A stretch of DNA of 13,792 nt from an uncultured Subdoligranulum sp. (GTDB lineage: Bacteria > Bacillota_A > Clostridia > Oscillospirales > Ruminococcaceae), in NCBI RefSeq assembly GCF_937890665.1, contig NZ_CALADU010000310.1, forward strand, positions 1-13,792. The letters are read 5' to 3'. Below are positions 4,429 through 12,993 of this stretch, one piece after another; within the stretch, counting starts at the first letter, position 1, and each line of letters starts with the position of its first letter. A model generated the notes under the pieces. It was not told where the DNA came from, did no database searches, and saw nothing but the letters and a program-made list of their open reading frames with translations. The position numbers and the translations under genes were made by a program.

Positions 4429-4473
4429 CGGTACAGTGGCAGGTATGCTCAAAAATGAATAACTTAACGAGTT

Positions 4474-4575
4474 AGAGGCCCCAGACGCTGAAAAGCATCT
4501 GGGGCCTCTTTGCTCCTGCCGCAATATGGCGGCAGGAGTATGCCGGGGACGCATTTCAGCGTCCCCGGCTTTTTT
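4474..4575 (+). ncRNA. Three-hairpin cluster ending in a terminator (possible small RNA)
   Basis: Three strong stems follow each other directly. The first has AGAGGCCCCAGA (4474-4485) pairing to TCTGGGGCCTCT (4498-4509) around a GAAA-capped tip. The second has CTCCTGCCGC (4513-4522) pairing to GCGGCAGGAG (4529-4538). The third has GCCGGGGACGC (4542-4552) pairing to GCGTCCCCGGC (4559-4569), followed by TTTTTT (4570-4575). The last is a textbook intrinsic terminator. The first two have no T run and are more than a terminator needs, so this may be the body of a small RNA or an attenuator leader. A 5-codon ORF (ATG 4445) precedes the hairpins but has no clear ribosome binding site. Confidence 0.5.
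4542..4575 (+). terminator. Intrinsic terminator
   Basis: A perfect 11-bp GC-rich stem with a 6-base loop is followed by six T. It ends any transcript from the 3828-4370 gene or from the possible promoter at 4423. Confidence 0.92.
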
Positions 4576-4644
4576 CTGCCCGGTACCAGGAGGGCCGGCG
4601 TGTTACAGGAGGGGTTTGCCCACTGCCAACACCCAAATCGGTGC

Positions 4645-4708: not shown

Positions 4709-5131
4709 ATGGCAGAGGAAAGGAAATATCGTCTTAGAGTAGAGGGACATCTGGTAGAGGTCACAAAGGATGTTTATCTGACCTATTACCGAGTGGAACG
4801 TCACACCAAAACATTGGATGAGAAAGATGTCCGAAACGGAAAGGTCTCATACAGTGATTTGGATACGGAAGAAACCCTTGGAGAAGAAATGGTTCCAGAT
4901 CCTAATGCTGAGAGCGTGGAAGACAAAGCGGTTGGCAATATCCTACTGCAGGAACTGCGTCAGTGTTTGGCACAGCTCCCTCTGGAGGAGCAGAATCTGA
5001 TCCGTGCCTTGTATTTCGAGGAGCTGACGGAGCGTGAGTATGCCAAACAAATCAATATCTCGCAGAAGGCGGTGAATAAGCGCCGCCATAAAATTTTGAG
5101 TAAACTCCGGGCTTTGATGAAAATAAAATAA
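4709..5131 (+). CDS. Small sigma-70-family (region 4) sigma factor-like protein
   Basis: A 140-residue protein of the type commonly annotated as sigma-70 family factor in Clostridia mobile elements. The C-terminal part (about residues 83-137) is a sigma region 4 HTH: LRQCLAQLPLEEQNLIRALYF, then the ELTEREYAKQINISQKAVNKRRHKIL segment, whose recognition helix sits at QKAVNKRRHKI. The N-terminal part (YLTYYRVERHTKTLDEKD ... SDLDTEETLGEE) is typical of the same proteins and replaces a normal region 2. ATG 4709 has GGAGG 8 bases upstream. It is preceded by a strong hairpin and followed by a 13-bp stem-loop. In relatives such proteins act on element genes; the target promoters here are not known. 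The neighbouring large RNA is one possible target. Confidence 0.88.
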   Translation: MAEERKYRLRVEGHLVEVTKDVYLTYYRVERHTKTLDEKDVRNGKVSYSDLDTEETLGEEMVPDPNAESVEDKAVGNILLQELRQCLAQLPLEEQNLIRALYFEELTEREYAKQINISQKAVNKRRHKILSKLRALMKIK

Positions 5132-5142
5132 TTTTTTGGTTC

Positions 5143-5183
5143 TCAACCCCCTCACGAACTCGGCTTAGTAGTGAGGGGGTTGA
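5143..5183 (+). terminator. Stem-loop after the sigma-like gene
   Basis: TCAACCCCCTCAC (5143-5155) pairs perfectly with GTGAGGGGGTTGA (5171-5183) around a 15-base loop. No T run follows (ATTATCTCC), although ATTTTTTGG precedes the stem. It may be a weak terminator, an RNA stabilising end, or the first stem of the following structured RNA. Confidence 0.6.
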
Positions 5184-5189
5184 ATTATC

Positions 5190-5828
5190 TCCCCCCTCGG
5201 GTTCCTTGAAAACCGAATACCCAACCATCTGAATACCTTCCTGACGGGGCCCTTTGAAAAAGGGCGAGCGACTCCGGAGGATGCGCCAAGACTACCTGTA
5301 GATGCACAGCGCAAGGTTGCGAACGAAGACACCCATACATTTCTGTTCGGTTCTGACAACCAGGCTGACCTACATCTATCAACGACGGCCAAATAAGGTG
5401 CCGAGCGGTTCCATCCGTCCGCAAAACAGCCGATGGCAAACTGTTTCGCAATGACTCCGTCAGGGACAATGATACTTCCGTCCAGTCCCAGCCCCCACCG
5501 GAATGGGGATCAAGCAAGGAGGGCGGCCGACAGAGATCCTGCCGGGGGTGAGACTCCCATGACGCGGTGGAGCCAGCCGCGGTTCAGATGATTGCCCTGA
5601 AGAGCCGGTGCCGGCGGCACAGGCTTTTGCGCTTGGGGAAGTAGTGTCGAATACGAGCGCAGCCCGAGAAAGACAACACAAATGTGAAGTCTTAATATCA
5701 GAAGCCATGGGGACCGCTCTTGCCCCCTGCTTCAGTCTCCGGTTAATGAGGATCTTTTTACGATACGAATTCTAAATGAACACAGGAGAAATTGGAGTTA
5801 GTCAAGGGCGGGAGCGGTCCCTATTTTT
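5190..5828 (+). ncRNA. Candidate large structured non-coding RNA (~640 nt)
   Basis: No convincing gene lies between 5132 and 5866. Instead many short inverted repeats are packed together: GCCCTT/AAGGGC closed by a GAAA-like loop (about 5249-5264), TAGATG/CATCTA (5299-5379 area), AAACAG/CTGTTT (5424-5445), GGGAC/GTCCC (5463-5489), CCCC/GGGG (5493-5508), CGCGG/CCGCG (5563-5581), AGCC-GGTGCC/GGCAC-GGCT (5602-5625), AAGAC/GTCTT with an inner CACA/TGTG (5669-5692). The 3' end is a 16-bp long-range stem (5710-5725 with 5806-5821) followed by TATTTTT. Size and ornateness recall the ROOL, GOLLD and OLE classes of large bacterial RNAs, which also occur in phages and mobile elements, but I cannot match it to any. 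Group II intron domain V and an intron-encoded protein were not found. The 5' end and strand are inferred from the terminator. Confidence 0.5.
5710..5828 (+). terminator. Long-range terminator stem before mazF
   Basis: GGGACCGCTCTTGCCC (5710-5725) pairs over its full 16 bases with GGGCGGGAGCGGTCCC (5806-5821), using two G-U pairs. The stem is followed by TATTTTT. The 80-base insert carries a further TCTCC/GGAGA pairing. It lies 39 bases before the mazF start, so read-through here would set toxin expression. Confidence 0.65.
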
Positions 5829-5866
5829 GTGGTATTAAGCCGCAACTTATTAAGGAGGTGTATCTC

Positions 5867-8003: not shown

Positions 8004-8735
8004 GTGGCCATCGAAAACGGAGAGTGGATCATGCGGGGACTGGACTGGGATGACCCCAGCCGTGTCCAGACGTGGGAGGACCTCATTGATCTGATCAACG
8101 AGGTCGGTTTCCTGCCCTTGTTCAAAAACGAGGTGGACGGTTTCTCCGTGGAGGAAAACACAGGAGACCTCTACTGGTGGACTGGCGACGAGGAGCAGGA
8201 CCCGTGGGAATGGCGGTGCCTCATGGCCCGCAGCGGGAAAGTGGCCTATGGAAAGTTTTTCGGCAAAAAGGCCGGCTTCATCTCCAGAGCTTGGTTCCCC
8301 CACTTCGCCAACTGGCGGCGGGATGGATACGACTTCGACAGCCGCTGGGACGAAGAGCTGGCCCCCATGCGCCAGAAGCGGATCATGGACTGCTTTTCCA
8401 TCCGAGAGGAGTGGTTCTCCTTTGCCCTGAAACAGCGGGCCGGCTTCGGCAAGGGCGGTGAAAAGAACTTCGAGGGTACCGTCACCGACCTGCAGATGGG
8501 TGGTTACCTCTTGATTCGGGACTTCCGGCAGCGAATCAATAAACGGGGCGCACCCTACGGCTGGCCCCTCTCCATCTACACCACCCCGGAGGCCCTGTGG
8601 GGCTATGACCACATTTCTTCCGCCTATTCCGTGGATCCGGCGGAATCCAAAACCATGATTTATGAACAGGTAGGGAAGAACTTTCCGGACGCGGCCCCGG
8701 GGGAACTGGACGCCGTGCTGGGTTGGACCCGATAA
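8004..8735 (+). CDS. AlkZ-related (YcaQ-like) protein
   Basis: A 243-residue protein resembling those annotated as AlkZ-related in gut Clostridia. Characteristic stretches are WEDLIDLINEVGFLPLFKN (24-42), GFSVEENTGDLYWWTGDEEQDPWEW (about 46-70), ARSGKVAYGKFFGKKAGFIS (about 74-93), RRDGYDFDSRWDE, and the segment with GFGKGGEKNFEGTVTDLQM near the centre, followed by LLIRDFRQR. AlkZ/YcaQ enzymes are DNA glycosylases for bulky or crosslinked bases, but this branch is shorter and its activity is unknown. GTG 8004 is the start: AGGGGG lies 7 bases upstream. It is 49 bases before a Y-family polymerase and shares its strand and promoter, which fits a DNA-damage function. The family name is from memory and is likely rather than certain. 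Confidence 0.82.
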   Translation: MAIENGEWIMRGLDWDDPSRVQTWEDLIDLINEVGFLPLFKNEVDGFSVEENTGDLYWWTGDEEQDPWEWRCLMARSGKVAYGKFFGKKAGFISRAWFPHFANWRRDGYDFDSRWDEELAPMRQKRIMDCFSIREEWFSFALKQRAGFGKGGEKNFEGTVTDLQMGGYLLIRDFRQRINKRGAPYGWPLSIYTTPEALWGYDHISSAYSVDPAESKTMIYEQVGKNFPDAAPGELDAVLGWTR

Positions 8736-8784: not shown

Positions 8785-10302
8785 ATGAAAGAACGGACCT
8801 ATATCTGCTGTGACCTGAAATCGTTCTACGCCTCGGTGGAGTGCGTGGAGCGGGGGCTGGATCCCATGACCACCAACTTGGTGGTGGCAGACAAGCGGCG
8901 CACGGAGAAGACGATCTGCCTGGCCGTCTCCCCCTCTCTGAAAGCCTACGGTATCTCTGGCCGGGCCCGGCTGTTCGAGGTGGTACAGCGGGTGGCAGAG
9001 GTAAACGCCAAGCGGAAATGGGACGCTCCAGGCTATCAGCTCACCGGCGCCTCCTGGAACGATCCTGAAGTACAGGGGAACCCTGCCTTGGCTCTGGACT
9101 ATATCGTGGCTCCGCCCCGGATGGCTCATTACATCGACTGGAGTACGAAAATCTACAGCGTCTATCTGAAATATATCGCCCCAGAGGACATCTTCCCCTA
9201 CTCCATCGACGAGGTGTTCATGGACATCACCAACTACCTGGACACCTATAAGATGACGGCGCGGGAACTGACCCGCACCATTATCCTGGACATTCTGAAG
9301 ACTACCGGCATCACCGCTGCGGCGGGAATGGGTACCAATCTATATCTTGCCAAGGTTGCCATGGACATCGTAGCCAAGCACGTCCATCCAGATCAAGATG
9401 GAGTGCGGATTGCCAAACTCAATGAGATGACCTACCGCCGTCTTCTGTGGACCCACCGCCCCCTGACGGATTTCTGGCGGGTAGGCAAGGGCTATGCCAA
9501 TAAGCTGGAGGCTCACGGACTATATACCACGGGCGACATCGCCCGGTGTTCCATCGGCAAACCCGGAGATTACCACAGCGAGGAACTGTTGTACCGGCTG
9601 TTCGGCGTCAATGCGGAGATTTTGATCGACCATGCCTGGGGCTGGGAGCCCTGCACTATTGCGGACGTGAAAGCCTATAAGCCGGAGAACAAAAGTATCG
9701 TCTCCGGGCAAGTCCTGCAGTGTCCCTACGACTTCAAGAAAGCCAGGCTGGTGGTGCGGGAGATGGCGGACGCCCTGGCCTTGGATTTGGTGGACAAAGG
9801 GCTGGTGACCAACCAGCTGGTACTCACCGTGGGCTACGACCGGGAGAATCTGGACGGCCCAAGCCGCCGTCAGAGCTACCGCGGCCCGGTGACCACTGAT
9901 CGCTATGGCCGGAAGATCCCCAAGCACGCCGTGGGGACAGAGAACTTCCCCTACACTTCTTCCGCCAGCGATCTGCTGAAGGCGGTGAGTGCCCTTTACG
10001 ACCGGATCGTGGACGAGAATCTACTGATCCGCCGACTGAGCATCAGTGCCAACAAGCTGCTCCCCGAGGTTGATGTGCCCAAGGATGAGGCAGAGCAGTT
10101 GGATCTGTTCACCGACTACGCCGCCAAGGAGCAGCAGGAGCAGGCGGACGAGGCCGCCCATGCCCGGGAGCGGAAGATTCAGGAGGCCATGCTGGGGATC
10201 AAGAAGAAGTTCGGCAAGAACGCCATCCTCAAGGGGATGAACCTGGAGGAGGGGGCCACTGCCCGTGAGCGGAATCAGACCATAGGAGGACATCACGAAT
10301 GA
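8785..10302 (+). CDS. Y-family translesion DNA polymerase (UvrX/UmuC-like)
   Basis: A 505-residue polymerase. Catalytic motifs are CDLKSFYASVECVERGLDP (9-27; metal ligand D10, steric-gate Y15) and YSIDEVFMDIT (139-149; D142, E143). A helix-hairpin-helix-like thumb region follows (TDFWRVGKGYANKLEAHGLYTTGDIA), then the little-finger domain. QLDLF (438-442) fits the beta-clamp-binding consensus. The C-terminal tail AMLGIKKKFGKNAILKGMN ... RNQTIGGHHE is typical of polymerases on Gram-positive plasmids, phages and ICEs. ATG 8785 has AGGAGGG 7 bases before it. Its stop overlaps the YolD-like start by four bases. The enzyme bypasses template lesions with low fidelity and would raise survival and mutation rates of a damaged host. 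Everything needed for activity is present. Confidence 0.96.
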   Translation: MKERTYICCDLKSFYASVECVERGLDPMTTNLVVADKRRTEKTICLAVSPSLKAYGISGRARLFEVVQRVAEVNAKRKWDAPGYQLTGASWNDPEVQGNPALALDYIVAPPRMAHYIDWSTKIYSVYLKYIAPEDIFPYSIDEVFMDITNYLDTYKMTARELTRTIILDILKTTGITAAAGMGTNLYLAKVAMDIVAKHVHPDQDGVRIAKLNEMTYRRLLWTHRPLTDFWRVGKGYANKLEAHGLYTTGDIARCSIGKPGDYHSEELLYRLFGVNAEILIDHAWGWEPCTIADVKAYKPENKSIVSGQVLQCPYDFKKARLVVREMADALALDLVDKGLVTNQLVLTVGYDRENLDGPSRRQSYRGPVTTDRYGRKIPKHAVGTENFPYTSSASDLLKAVSALYDRIVDENLLIRRLSISANKLLPEVDVPKDEAEQLDLFTDYAAKEQQEQADEAAHARERKIQEAMLGIKKKFGKNAILKGMNLEEGATARERNQTIGGHHE

Positions 10303-10903: not shown

Positions 10904-11119
10904 ATGAAGAAACAGTCGATGTTTGAAAATTACCCGGATGTCGTGGAGGTGGATGACCTTCGAAAAATGCTCGGCGGCATCAGCAAGAAATTGGCCTACA
11001 GATTACTATCAGATCAGGAAATTCGGAGTGTACGTGTCGGCAGAACCTATAAGATTCCCAAAATCTGCGTAATCGAGTATCTGATGGGTGAGGAAATGTG
11101 TCACATCAACCTCTCCTAA
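10904..11119 (+). CDS. Excisionase-family helix-turn-helix protein (Xis-like)
   Basis: A 71-residue protein with one winged HTH of the excisionase/MerR-like type: VVEVDDLRKMLGGISKKLAYRLLSDQEIRSVRVGRTYKIPKICVIEYL (about residues 13-60). The VGRTYKIPK segment forms the wing, and the tail is short. ATG 10904 has AAGGAGG 6 bases upstream, in a potential hairpin. It lies 153 bases before the integrase gene, the standard place for a recombination directionality factor, which bends the attachment DNA so that the integrase excises the element. The identity as Xis rests on size, fold and position. Confidence 0.9.
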   Translation: MKKQSMFENYPDVVEVDDLRKMLGGISKKLAYRLLSDQEIRSVRVGRTYKIPKICVIEYLMGEEMCHINLS

Positions 11120-11272: not shown

Positions 11273-12508
11273 ATGATAACAGGATGCCTGCAGCAGAAAA
11301 ATGGATACTACTATGTGCTTTTATACCTCAAGGTAGACGGAAAGCGGAAGGTCAAATGGATATCAACCAAATTGCCCGTGTCCGGAACCAGTGAGCGCAA
11401 GGCAAAAAGGGCGTTTGATGAGATCCGAAGCCAGTTTGAAAAAGAGTACGAGGAGCAGTTGCAACGTGAGGAACAGGAGCGCATTCTGGAGCAGACTGTT
11501 CCCCATGATGCACGGTTGGAGTTCTCGGACTACATGAACAAGTGGCTGAATAGTGTGCGCTCTACGATCGCCACCGCAACATACCAGAGCTATGCCAATA
11601 TGCTCAAGGCCCGCATTATCCCCTACTTCGAACCGCGCGGAATTGCGGTGATGGATTTGACACCTCAAGACATTGAAGATTTTTATCAAAAGGTGCTGGC
11701 AGACGGATGCACGACAAATACCGTGATACATTACCACGCAATCATCCGAAAAGCTCTGCAAAGCGCAGTCCGGAAGGATACCATCGCCAAAAATCCCGCC
11801 GACAAAGTAGACCGGCCGAAGAAAAACGTTTATCATGGCACTTTCTACAGTGAGGAAGAAATGCTGGAGCTGTTTGATGCGGTGGAAGGCGATCCCCTTG
11901 AACTGTGCGTGAAGATTGCCGCCTATTACGGTCTGCGCCGAAGCGAGGTGTTGGGGCTGAGATGGAGCGCCATCGATCTGGAGCGCAAGACCATCTCCAT
12001 CAGCCACAAGGTTATCGAGGCAGAGGTGAATGGGAAATTCGTCCCGGTTGGAGAAGATGTACTGAAAACCAAGTCCAGTTTTCGGACACTACCCCTCATC
12101 CCCGCAGTGGAAAAACTGATCCTGGCAGAAAAAGAAAAGCAGGAGATGTACAGAAGACTGTTCAAAAAGTCCTACTGCAGAGATTATCTCGAATACATCT
12201 GTGTAGATCAATGCGGCAGACTTCTACGTCCGAATTATGTGACAGAACACTTCAGCTGGATCATTGAGAAATACGGCTTGCGGAAAATCCGGTTCCACGA
12301 TCTACGGCATACCTGCGCAAGTCTTCTGCTTAACAGCGGAGAAAATATCACAATGAAGCAGATCCAAATATGGCTGGGACATAGTACCTATTCCACAACA
12401 GCAGACATCTACGCACACTTGGATCACAACGCACAGCAGGCTCCTGCAAATACAATGAATGGTATGTTCATTCGCGGGGCCAAAGATTGTGCGGTGCAGC
12501 CAATATAA
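11273..12508 (+). CDS. int: Tyrosine recombinase (site-specific integrase)
   Basis: A 411-residue integrase of the Tn916/phage type. The N-terminal part (1-75) is an arm-binding-like domain followed by a helical, charged linker. The SAM-like core-binding domain covers about 82-178 (LEFSDYMNKWLNSVR ... NPADKVDRP). The catalytic domain runs from about 190 to the end. Active-site residues are complete: R222 (YYGLRRSE), K267 (KTKSS), H342 and R345 (HDLRH), H370 (WLGHS) and Y380 (TADIYAHLD). AGGAGG lies 6 bases before ATG 11273. It follows the Xis-like gene and directs recombination at the element end, just upstream of a tRNA-Ser core and arm-like repeats. It is not frameshifted and should be functional. 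Confidence 0.97.
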   Translation: MITGCLQQKNGYYYVLLYLKVDGKRKVKWISTKLPVSGTSERKAKRAFDEIRSQFEKEYEEQLQREEQERILEQTVPHDARLEFSDYMNKWLNSVRSTIATATYQSYANMLKARIIPYFEPRGIAVMDLTPQDIEDFYQKVLADGCTTNTVIHYHAIIRKALQSAVRKDTIAKNPADKVDRPKKNVYHGTFYSEEEMLELFDAVEGDPLELCVKIAAYYGLRRSEVLGLRWSAIDLERKTISISHKVIEAEVNGKFVPVGEDVLKTKSSFRTLPLIPAVEKLILAEKEKQEMYRRLFKKSYCRDYLEYICVDQCGRLLRPNYVTEHFSWIIEKYGLRKIRFHDLRHTCASLLLNSGENITMKQIQIWLGHSTYSTTADIYAHLDHNAQQAPANTMNGMFIRGAKDCAVQPI

Positions 12509-12539
12509 AAAAGCTGGCAGTGATTTCACACTGCCAGCT
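12507..12539 (-). terminator. Terminator of the minus-strand tRNA-Ser
   Basis: AGCTGGCAGTG (12512-12522) and CACTGCCAGCT (12529-12539) form a perfect 11-bp stem with a 6-base loop. On the minus strand the stem is followed by TTTTTT, so it ends tRNA transcription and lies directly next to the tRNA's CCA. On the plus strand it lies just after the integrase stop without a T run. Confidence 0.85.
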
Positions 12540-12540
12540 C

Positions 12541-12630
12541 TGGCGGAGGAGGTGGGGGTCGAACCCACGCGCCGGTCACCCGACCTACGAGATTTCGAGT
12601 CACGCCTCTTCACCACTTGAGTACTCCTCC
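12541..12630 (-). tRNA. tRNA-Ser (anticodon CGA), complete
   Basis: Minus strand, 90 nt including an encoded CCA (12541-12543). The acceptor GGAGGAG pairs fully with CTCCTCC, the D stem is CTC/GAG with GG in the loop, and the anticodon loop CTCGAAA (12593-12599) has anticodon CGA. There is a long Ser-type variable arm (GGTC/GACC), and the T stem GTGGG/CCCAC has loop TTCGACC. The anticodon stem CGTGA/TCTCG has one U-U mismatch at its third pair. It reads toward the integrase and has its own terminator. I read it as an element-borne copy that replaces the tRNA broken at 12771-12812; alternatively its own anticodon loop is the junction. Confidence 0.9.
12591..12602. repeat. Core repeat, copy 1 (in the intact tRNA anticodon arm)
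   Basis: GATTTCGAGTCA is identical to 12771-12782, exactly 180 bp away, with CCTAC also shared two bases upstream of both. It spans the anticodon loop, a standard tyrosine-integrase crossover site. Confidence 0.7.
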
Positions 12631-12652
12631 GTATGTTTCAAACACCTGCTCC

Positions 12653-12712
12653 CGTAGATAAAGCAAAGTGTTAGAAAAAGCGTAGATATTCAATTTTCCA
12701 AAAGCGTAGATA
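12653..12712 (+). repeat. Three CGTAGATA direct repeats (integrase arm-type sites)
   Basis: CGTAGATA occurs at 12653-12660, 12681-12688 and 12705-12712, at spacings of 28 and 24 bases, in AT-rich DNA. The last two share AAAG before the motif. They lie 59-118 bases from the tRNA core at 12771, where arm sites of a tyrosine integrase attachment site are expected. The related CGTAGA palindrome before the integrase gene supports the same protein binding both. Confidence 0.65.
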
Positions 12713-12770
12713 AACCGGAATCCCAGTAAAATCAATGGGCTGCGGGGTCAGGCGGAGATATGGCCTACAC

Positions 12771-12812
12771 GATTTCGAGTCAAGCTCGTTACGACCACTT
12801 CGATACGTCTCC
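12771..12812 (-). pseudogene. Broken tRNA-Ser (CGA) 5' half, probable attachment junction
   Basis: Minus strand. A good tRNA-Ser start is present: GGAGACG acceptor (12812-12806), TA, D arm TCG/CGA around AAGTGGTCGTAA, and CTTGA with anticodon loop CTCGAAA (12773-12779). After ATC the expected 3' half is missing: no variable arm or T arm follows, and the sequence runs into GTGTAGGCCATATCTCCGCC. The TCTCC-GCC there can pair with GGAGA, so either the attachment DNA mimics an acceptor end or the 3' half decayed. Element DNA is inferred to lie to its left, chromosome to its right. Confidence 0.65.
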
Positions 12813-12993
12813 ATATATAATTGAAATCCTGGAACAGACGGCATCAAACAAAAACTGATTCTGTGCGATCAGAAATTGTAAGAACCGGATAAACCAGTGT
12901 TTTTATTATGCCACAGATCGTTTCCTGATGCAAGCCCTGAAACAAATCACATGAATAGAATGGATGGTTCATAAGCTCAACGGGAGGGATCAG

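Follow-up and report, generated by a model that had tools for sequence, protein, structure and literature searches.

A structured leader RNA in a mobile element and its probable membership of a pemK/canT family of antiterminators

The locus and the pemK RNA core

The window, i.e. the whole stretch of 13,792 nucleotides from an uncultured Subdoligranulum sp. that was analysed, contains a structured leader RNA that spans positions 5201 to 5840 approximately and forms one unit of about 640 nt. A non-coding segment at 5190..5828, located in a mobile element and adjoining a sigma-like gene, had been predicted from the sequence; these coordinates were nearly correct, the extent of the RNA being rather about 5201-5840. 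No convincing gene was present among the open reading frames (ORFs) of the segment, and the integrase and excisionase-like genes found in the window agree with the predicted setting. The features of the locus, all on the + strand, are as follows.

4709..5131, +: sigma-70 region-4-like ORF directly 5' of the RNA (Pfam Sigma70_r4_2, E 1.4e-8)
5144..5182, +: hairpin CAACCCCCTCAC / GTGAGGGGGTTG 5' of boxA, read from the sequence; terminator-like or boxB-like
5201..5219, +: boxA-like element GTTCCTTGAAAACCGAATA just 5' of P1, resembling the boxA of 16S leaders
5222-5233 with 5583-5594, +: P1, long-range closing helix with one mismatch (5223:5593, E 0.000)
5241-5248 with 5456-5463, +: P2 helix (neighbouring columns covary, 5248:5457, E 0.000)
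5276-5282 with 5413-5420 and 5283-5287 with 5397-5401, +: P4 domain, with conserved GCGCCAAGAC and GAGCG inside
5298-5304 with 5373-5379, +: P5 helix (95.1% of cells paired, double changes in 6/7 pairs)
5424..5446, +: P6 hairpin (5428:5442 and 5429:5441 covary; 88.4% paired)
5466..5562, +: Rfam pemK RNA core (RF02913), starting with the ACAAUGAUACUUC motif
5563-5568 with 5576-5581, +: P11 hairpin (5565-5567:5577-5579 among the strongest covarying pairs)
5629..5660, +: P12 hairpin around GGGGAAGTAGTGTCGAATA (5635:5654, E 0.000; 87.9% paired)
5691-5699/5831-5839 (outer) and 5710-5725/5806-5821 (inner), +: 3' composite hairpin, TATTTTT between the two helices
5867..6241, +: PemK/MazF-family gene, the first after the RNA (Pfam PemK_toxin, E 2.9e-31)
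10904-11119, +: excisionase-like gene (Pfam HTH_17; NCBIfam 'excise' 28.4 bits, slightly below the cut-off of 28.8)
11273-12508, +: tyrosine recombinase (XerC/XerD-type models, below their cut-offs)

The excisionase-like and integrase genes are located about 5 kb downstream of the RNA, with the PemK gene and other genes in between. A simple scan of the sense strand for terminators with loops of 3-8 detected no strong site between the RNA and the integrase gene and a single weak one (8596-8613). The same operon-like run includes a gene for a DinB/UmuC-like DNA polymerase (8785-10302, below the cut-offs of the models). Upstream of the sigma-like ORF there are GC-rich tandem hairpins (4435-4600), among them a terminator-like hairpin at 4542-4569 that is followed by TTTTTT, and in the hairpin at 5144..5182 the AGTGAGGGG strand is the better-conserved side in an alignment of 52 sequences. 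A tRNA-Ser gene (12541-12630) adjoins the integrase gene and a tRNA-Ser-like fragment was spotted by eye at about 12760-12815; given that exact matches to the contig of the nearest genome (G001) extend to about 12812, this fragment may mark the end of the element. An attachment-site repeat was considered and rejected, as no second exact 18-base copy of 12471-12960 was present in the window or in the G001 contig, the colinear one aside.

The covariance-model search against Rfam that the original prediction had proposed placed the centre of the segment (5466-5562) in pemK RNA, RF02913, at 62.2 bits as compared to a gathering score of 34.8. The segment had been considered unassignable and possibly new, and had been likened to ROOL, GOLLD and OLE; none of these three families, which we take to be included in the Rfam library, had a match in the segment, nor did any other Rfam family reach its gathering score there. 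The dinG RNA (RF03082) was rejected as a candidate, given a sub-threshold score in the window (19.0 as compared to 46.9 bits) and its occurrence in 2 of 196 genomes of the class. The RF02913 model comprises 61 positions, is of Rfam type Cis-reg and represents only the inner part of the RNA of about 640 nt. The inner helices of the model are present and covary in the window RNA, whereas boxA, P1, P2, P4-P6, P11, P12 and the 3' composite hairpin lie beyond the 61 positions. The pemK RNA was reportedly described in a 2017 paper.

At E <= 0.001 RF02913 was found in 94/295 genomes of the order, 103/341 genomes of the class (presumably Clostridia) and 15/199 genomes of the phylum, each time with 0/14 among the controls. 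The nearest genome holds a copy of the segment that is 99% identical. Four pemK RNA copies are present in that genome, on contigs C10, C21, C55 and C56, which suggests several resident elements. The sole phage match was to record MT835765.1 (85% identical over 77% of the segment), and no match to the segment was obtained among plasmids.

Covariation and conservation of the structure

Two sets of sequences were compared. The order-level RF02913 search contributed 110 loci among the matches listed, 80 of them selected by hand, which together with the window and a close copy of it (L001) gave 112 oriented loci, 102 of which were retained as non-redundant. A 3' pattern, GGGAAGTAGTGTCGAATA, was found in 10 viral-contig loci and at least 119 genome-contig stretches and occurred at 138 sites across all collected loci; 68 of these had 480 bases of upstream sequence together with a boxA-like match at an appropriate distance, and removal of redundancy left 56 sequences. 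Since the 56 sequences were picked by the exact motif and a boxA-like regular expression, the conservation of the 3' motif and of the boxA bases is by construction, and the loop bases of P12 are likewise invariant because they were used as search pattern. None of the covarying pairs described below falls within the 3' selection motif, although 5635:5654 in P12 touches its edge.

Covariation was scored by a G-test with APC, a simplification of R-scape, using as null 40 replicates in which the reconstructed substitutions were permuted on a FastTree tree. At E <0.2 there were 25 covarying column pairs (n=56), which span 5223-5657 and are all standard base pairs in 85-100% of the sequences. A repeat with 52 sequences with longer flanks gave 24 pairs at E <0.3, all standard in 86% or more, and gained two pairs within the 3' stem. 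The original prediction had argued for selection on RNA and had named a lack of covariation in the stems as evidence against it; standard pairs were found to covary across the whole RNA, in agreement with selection at the RNA level.

The fold of minimum energy predicted from the window alone (132 pairs) was mapped onto a MAFFT alignment, where it had 833 double-change cells as compared to 318 +/- 19 in shuffled data (0/500) and a maximum of 305 in slid versions. Pairing of several of its helices is poor in the alignment, and in further pair types, the weakest of its measures, it was matched by 9/500 shuffles. For a refined structure of 89 pairs the number of double-change cells was 946 as compared to 321 +/- 19 (0/500), with a slid maximum of 282 and 84.2% of the cells paired, a result biased towards this structure because it was refined with covarying pairs from related data. 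The folding energy of 5203-5660 resembled that of shuffles (z -0.54, 30/100 as good) and 5660-5845 was far more stable than shuffles (z -5.19, 0/200). The many short stems noted originally are thus real by comparison, but stems alone are no proof at z -0.54, and the argument for structure rests on covariation and comparison, folding energy alone being insufficient. Between the window and the G001 copy there were 7 differences in 671 bases, four of them within one stem, where one pair was swapped from C-G to G-C and one mismatch became a pair.

Among the individual helices, P1 was paired in 81.0% of the cells and the two helices of P4 in 94.9% (5276-5282) and 81.8% (5283-5287). P1 was also examined without alignment in the 83 sequences with a boxA score of at least 6 (82 of the 102 loci, and canT of Tn916): own-strand complementarity of at least 18 was observed in 56/83, as compared to 115/986 swapped pairs. 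The consensus helices of the pemK core covary at 5477:5559, 5479:5525 and 5528-5531:5541-5544. P2 was paired in 38.8% of the cells, in a part of the alignment that is probably out of register; pairing of the P3 hairpin in the alignment was poor (20-66% of cells). The insertion in P5 is rare, its helices having letters in 4-6 of the 56 sequences.

Three further observations concern single sites or relatives. An isolated covarying pair, 5239:5472 (T-A, C-G, G-C), connects the strand after P1 with the A of AATGATAC and is possibly a tertiary contact. One relative (L143:235-597) has the outer parts of the RNA and no pemK core, either by natural deletion or by an assembly fault, and in another (L206) the 3' motif is present twice, 72 bases apart, as though the RNA were partly duplicated.

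At the 3' end the 16-bp stem of the original prediction was recovered (5710-5725 with 5806-5821, then TATTTTT), including its two G-U pairs, which are U-G at 5720:5811 and 5721:5810, and its pairs covary in relatives (5713:5818, E 0.000; 5710:5821, E 0.025). TATTTTT does not form a free tail: a second helix (5691-5699/5831-5839) flanks it, and it therefore reads as one strand of an internal loop. An intrinsic terminator at the 3' end of the RNA was rejected for the same reason. The first eight pairs of this outer helix were paired in 289/349 cells (82.8% as compared to 64.5% in shuffled data), and the composite hairpin as a whole (5691-5839) is found in many relatives of the window type. A small conserved ORF in 5700-5845 (MG.AL...RSLFLWY-like) was considered and rejected; of 116 distinct 3' flanks, 8 carried its start-site motif, and the frame broke down among the flanks listed.

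The boxA-like element and the neighbouring genes

The element just upstream of P1 resembles the boxA of rRNA operons. Leaders were located by a 16S pattern, which matched 15 of 20 genomes (a 23S pattern had no match in the same 20), and the CCTTGAAAATT boxA was present in 22 of 30 16S leaders from genomes of the same order, 156-213 bases 5' of the 16S pattern, the other 8 being without it. A boxA position weight matrix (PWM) built solely from distinct examples of these 16S leaders scored 10 or more within 350 bases upstream of 52/97 pemK loci and below 10 at 45/97 (5 of the 102 loci were dropped for too little upstream sequence). The corresponding numbers were 4/97 on the opposite strand and 1/93 and 2/92 in control stretches. 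The close copy of the window, L001, scored 13.8. The window RNA thus shares a boxA-like sequence at its 5' end with the rrn leaders, but these precede rRNA whereas the window RNA precedes none. A function of the boxA-like sequence as -35 promoter element was rejected, given that P1 begins a few bases 3' of it.

The pattern YYTTGAMAAYTGAATA occurred 41 times in 147 genomes, as compared to once for a reversed control. Thirty of the 41 sites were made into loci, of which 9 had an Rfam pemK match and 3 were in rRNA operons; the remainder, judged by eye, were one 16S leader, 5 truncated or variant pemK-like loci, 5 other RNA-like loci and 7 of other kinds. In five loci (L278, L286, L292, L296 and L305) a shorter boxA-led, RNA-like leader was seen, with a varying arrangement of GCCGTCC..GGGATATGAC..GTGAGATTCCGGGG, a boxA site near 1500 (near 900 in L292) and short ORFs following, some of them excisionase-like. 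None of the five had an Rfam pemK or rRNA match at the gathering threshold, and the stretch is possibly another class of leader.

The gene order around the pemK loci is recurrent. An upstream ORF was chosen at 88 of the 102 loci, and 48/88 matched Sigma70_r4_2 and 4/88 Phage_antitermQ. The 97 chosen downstream ORFs varied: 31 were PemK, 20 Resolvase, 11 AAA_31/ParA-like and 8 Phage_integrase (tyrosine integrase). Since the choice was mechanical, some of the chosen ORFs are chance ORFs. In a few other loci, L012 for example, the PemK gene comes further downstream. The variety of downstream ORFs indicated that the RNA is not tied to PemK alone, and it suits a general role as leader.

Relation to canT of Tn916 and possible function

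The Tn916-type element on pCF10, which we take to be Tn925, contains an RF02913 match of 55.0 bits (E 5.6e-9) that lies between an HTH gene and xis, and this stretch is 100% identical in other records, including two that are annotated 'excisionase from transposon Tn916'. In Tn916 the interval from orf8 to xis is canT, an antiterminator that most likely works as RNA; according to PMC11658703, processive antitermination in cis, dependent on orientation, was shown experimentally, and canT functioned with heterologous promoters and terminators. By the base numbering of that source, the S3 change (ATA to TGC from base 283 after orf8) falls on the three bases with which the Tn925 RF02913 match opens, and the 162-base deletion of canT (bases 229-390) corresponds to Tn925 41976-41815 and covers the match; each left less than 5% of reporter expression (PMC11658703). 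A 452-bp active fragment begins at base 126 after orf8, and a 400-bp fragment was active yet insensitive to S3 (PMC11658703). As the 452-bp fragment starts inside boxA, activity may not require the whole of boxA. The authors deem it complicated to infer activity from structure predictions of canT (PMC11658703). In our comparison canT folded somewhat better than shuffles (z -2.06, 5/100 as good).

canT and the window RNA are homologous. Both begin with a boxA-like element (TGTTCTTTGAAAACTGAATA in canT of Tn925) and share P1 (12 pairs in canT, two of them G-U), P2 (CGATAAGAA/TTCTTATCG, read from the sequence), the GCCATGACC and GAGCG motifs and the pemK core, and they are similar in size, as judged from the 452-bp active fragment. 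The AUA of AUAAUGAUAC that is the target of S3 corresponds to ACAAUGAUAC at 5466 of the window, with C for U at the middle base. The gene order of Tn925 (sigma-like gene, HTH gene, canT, xis, int) resembles that of the pemK loci, and in the window a sigma-like ORF lies upstream and excisionase-like and integrase genes downstream, on the same strand, as in the layout of canT, xis and int. The two differ in that canT abuts xis whereas in the window PemK lies in between, along with other genes that take up about 5 kb, and in that neither the P5 insertion nor the 3' composite hairpin of the window RNA was seen in canT.

These comparisons make it very likely that the segment serves a mobile-element operon as its leader RNA and is a long-form member of one pemK/canT family of antiterminators. 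Our confidence is high for membership of the family and good for antitermination as the predicted function, and it is evenly balanced for an involvement of boxA and Nus factors. The window copy would accordingly be expected to antiterminate, and host Nus factors may act through its boxA. In the proposed mechanism, a polymerase leaving the sigma-like gene would transcribe the boxA-like site and then the RNA closed by P1, and the folded RNA would remain with the very polymerase that had transcribed it and enable this enzyme to pass terminators, so that the downstream genes are read. After excision and circularisation, genes past the joined ends of the element would be read as well. Read-through by 5190-5845 of the window would depend on AAUGAUAC, an intact P1 and orientation. 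EAR of the eps operon, HK022 put and pLS20 conAn2 are also RNA antiterminators of long operons (PMC11658703) and are likened to the window RNA by mode of working only.

An alternative reading is that the RNA is a cis-regulator of the downstream PemK gene, as an attenuator or riboswitch. This would fit the PemK gene directly 3' of the RNA in the window, the Rfam name and type, and the 31 PemK genes among the 97 chosen downstream ORFs, as well as PemK as a later gene in some other loci; given that 66 of the 97 chosen ORFs, mechanical as the choice was, are not PemK, that 20 are Resolvase, and that canT precedes xis and tolerates foreign promoters and terminators (PMC11658703), we regard it as unlikely. 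The resemblance of boxA to the rrn boxA of related genomes might also mean that boxA solely guards a long untranslated transcript against Rho, as it does in rRNA operons, and that the structured body does something else, but the changes that abolish canT activity are located in the structured core and not in boxA, which makes this still less probable.

The size, the ornate fold and the location in mobile DNA would be compatible with a large non-coding RNA that is free and acts in trans, in the manner of ROOL, GOLLD and OLE, which are also large structured bacterial RNAs. The absence of all three from the Rfam matches in the segment, the recurring position with a sigma- or HTH-like gene on one side and an ORF on the other, and the failure of canT to complement in trans (PMC11658703) leave very little probability for such an RNA. 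Least probable of all is that the structure is used as single-stranded DNA, at an origin of transfer or replication, as the mobile-element genes and the long inverted repeats could suggest; the G-U pairs, the boxA and the orientation ahead of a gene favour RNA, and canT is orientation-specific, its antisense orf5 is dispensable, and expression and not excision was affected (PMC11658703).

The pemK RNA and canT are both already known and, as far as we searched, the new part is the link between them. The terms pemK, Rfam and boxA are absent from the text of PMC11658703, the pemK RNA serves only as a test family in the available part of PMC11507696, and among the papers listed by searches of the open-licence literature none joins the two. 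The link connects an Rfam family named for a neighbouring gene with the experimentally proven antiterminator of Tn916, provides a comparative structure for canT, suggests a function for the pemK RNA and points to antitermination by RNA as a common feature of the mobile elements of this group. More tentatively, and with somewhat less than even confidence, the pemK RNA and canT may constitute one widespread class of RNA antiterminators that captures the host machinery of rRNA antitermination via boxA. If this is true, a mobile element would couple its own operons to a polymerase state otherwise used for rRNA, and the second boxA-led RNA suggests that several classes of RNA may use the same trick.
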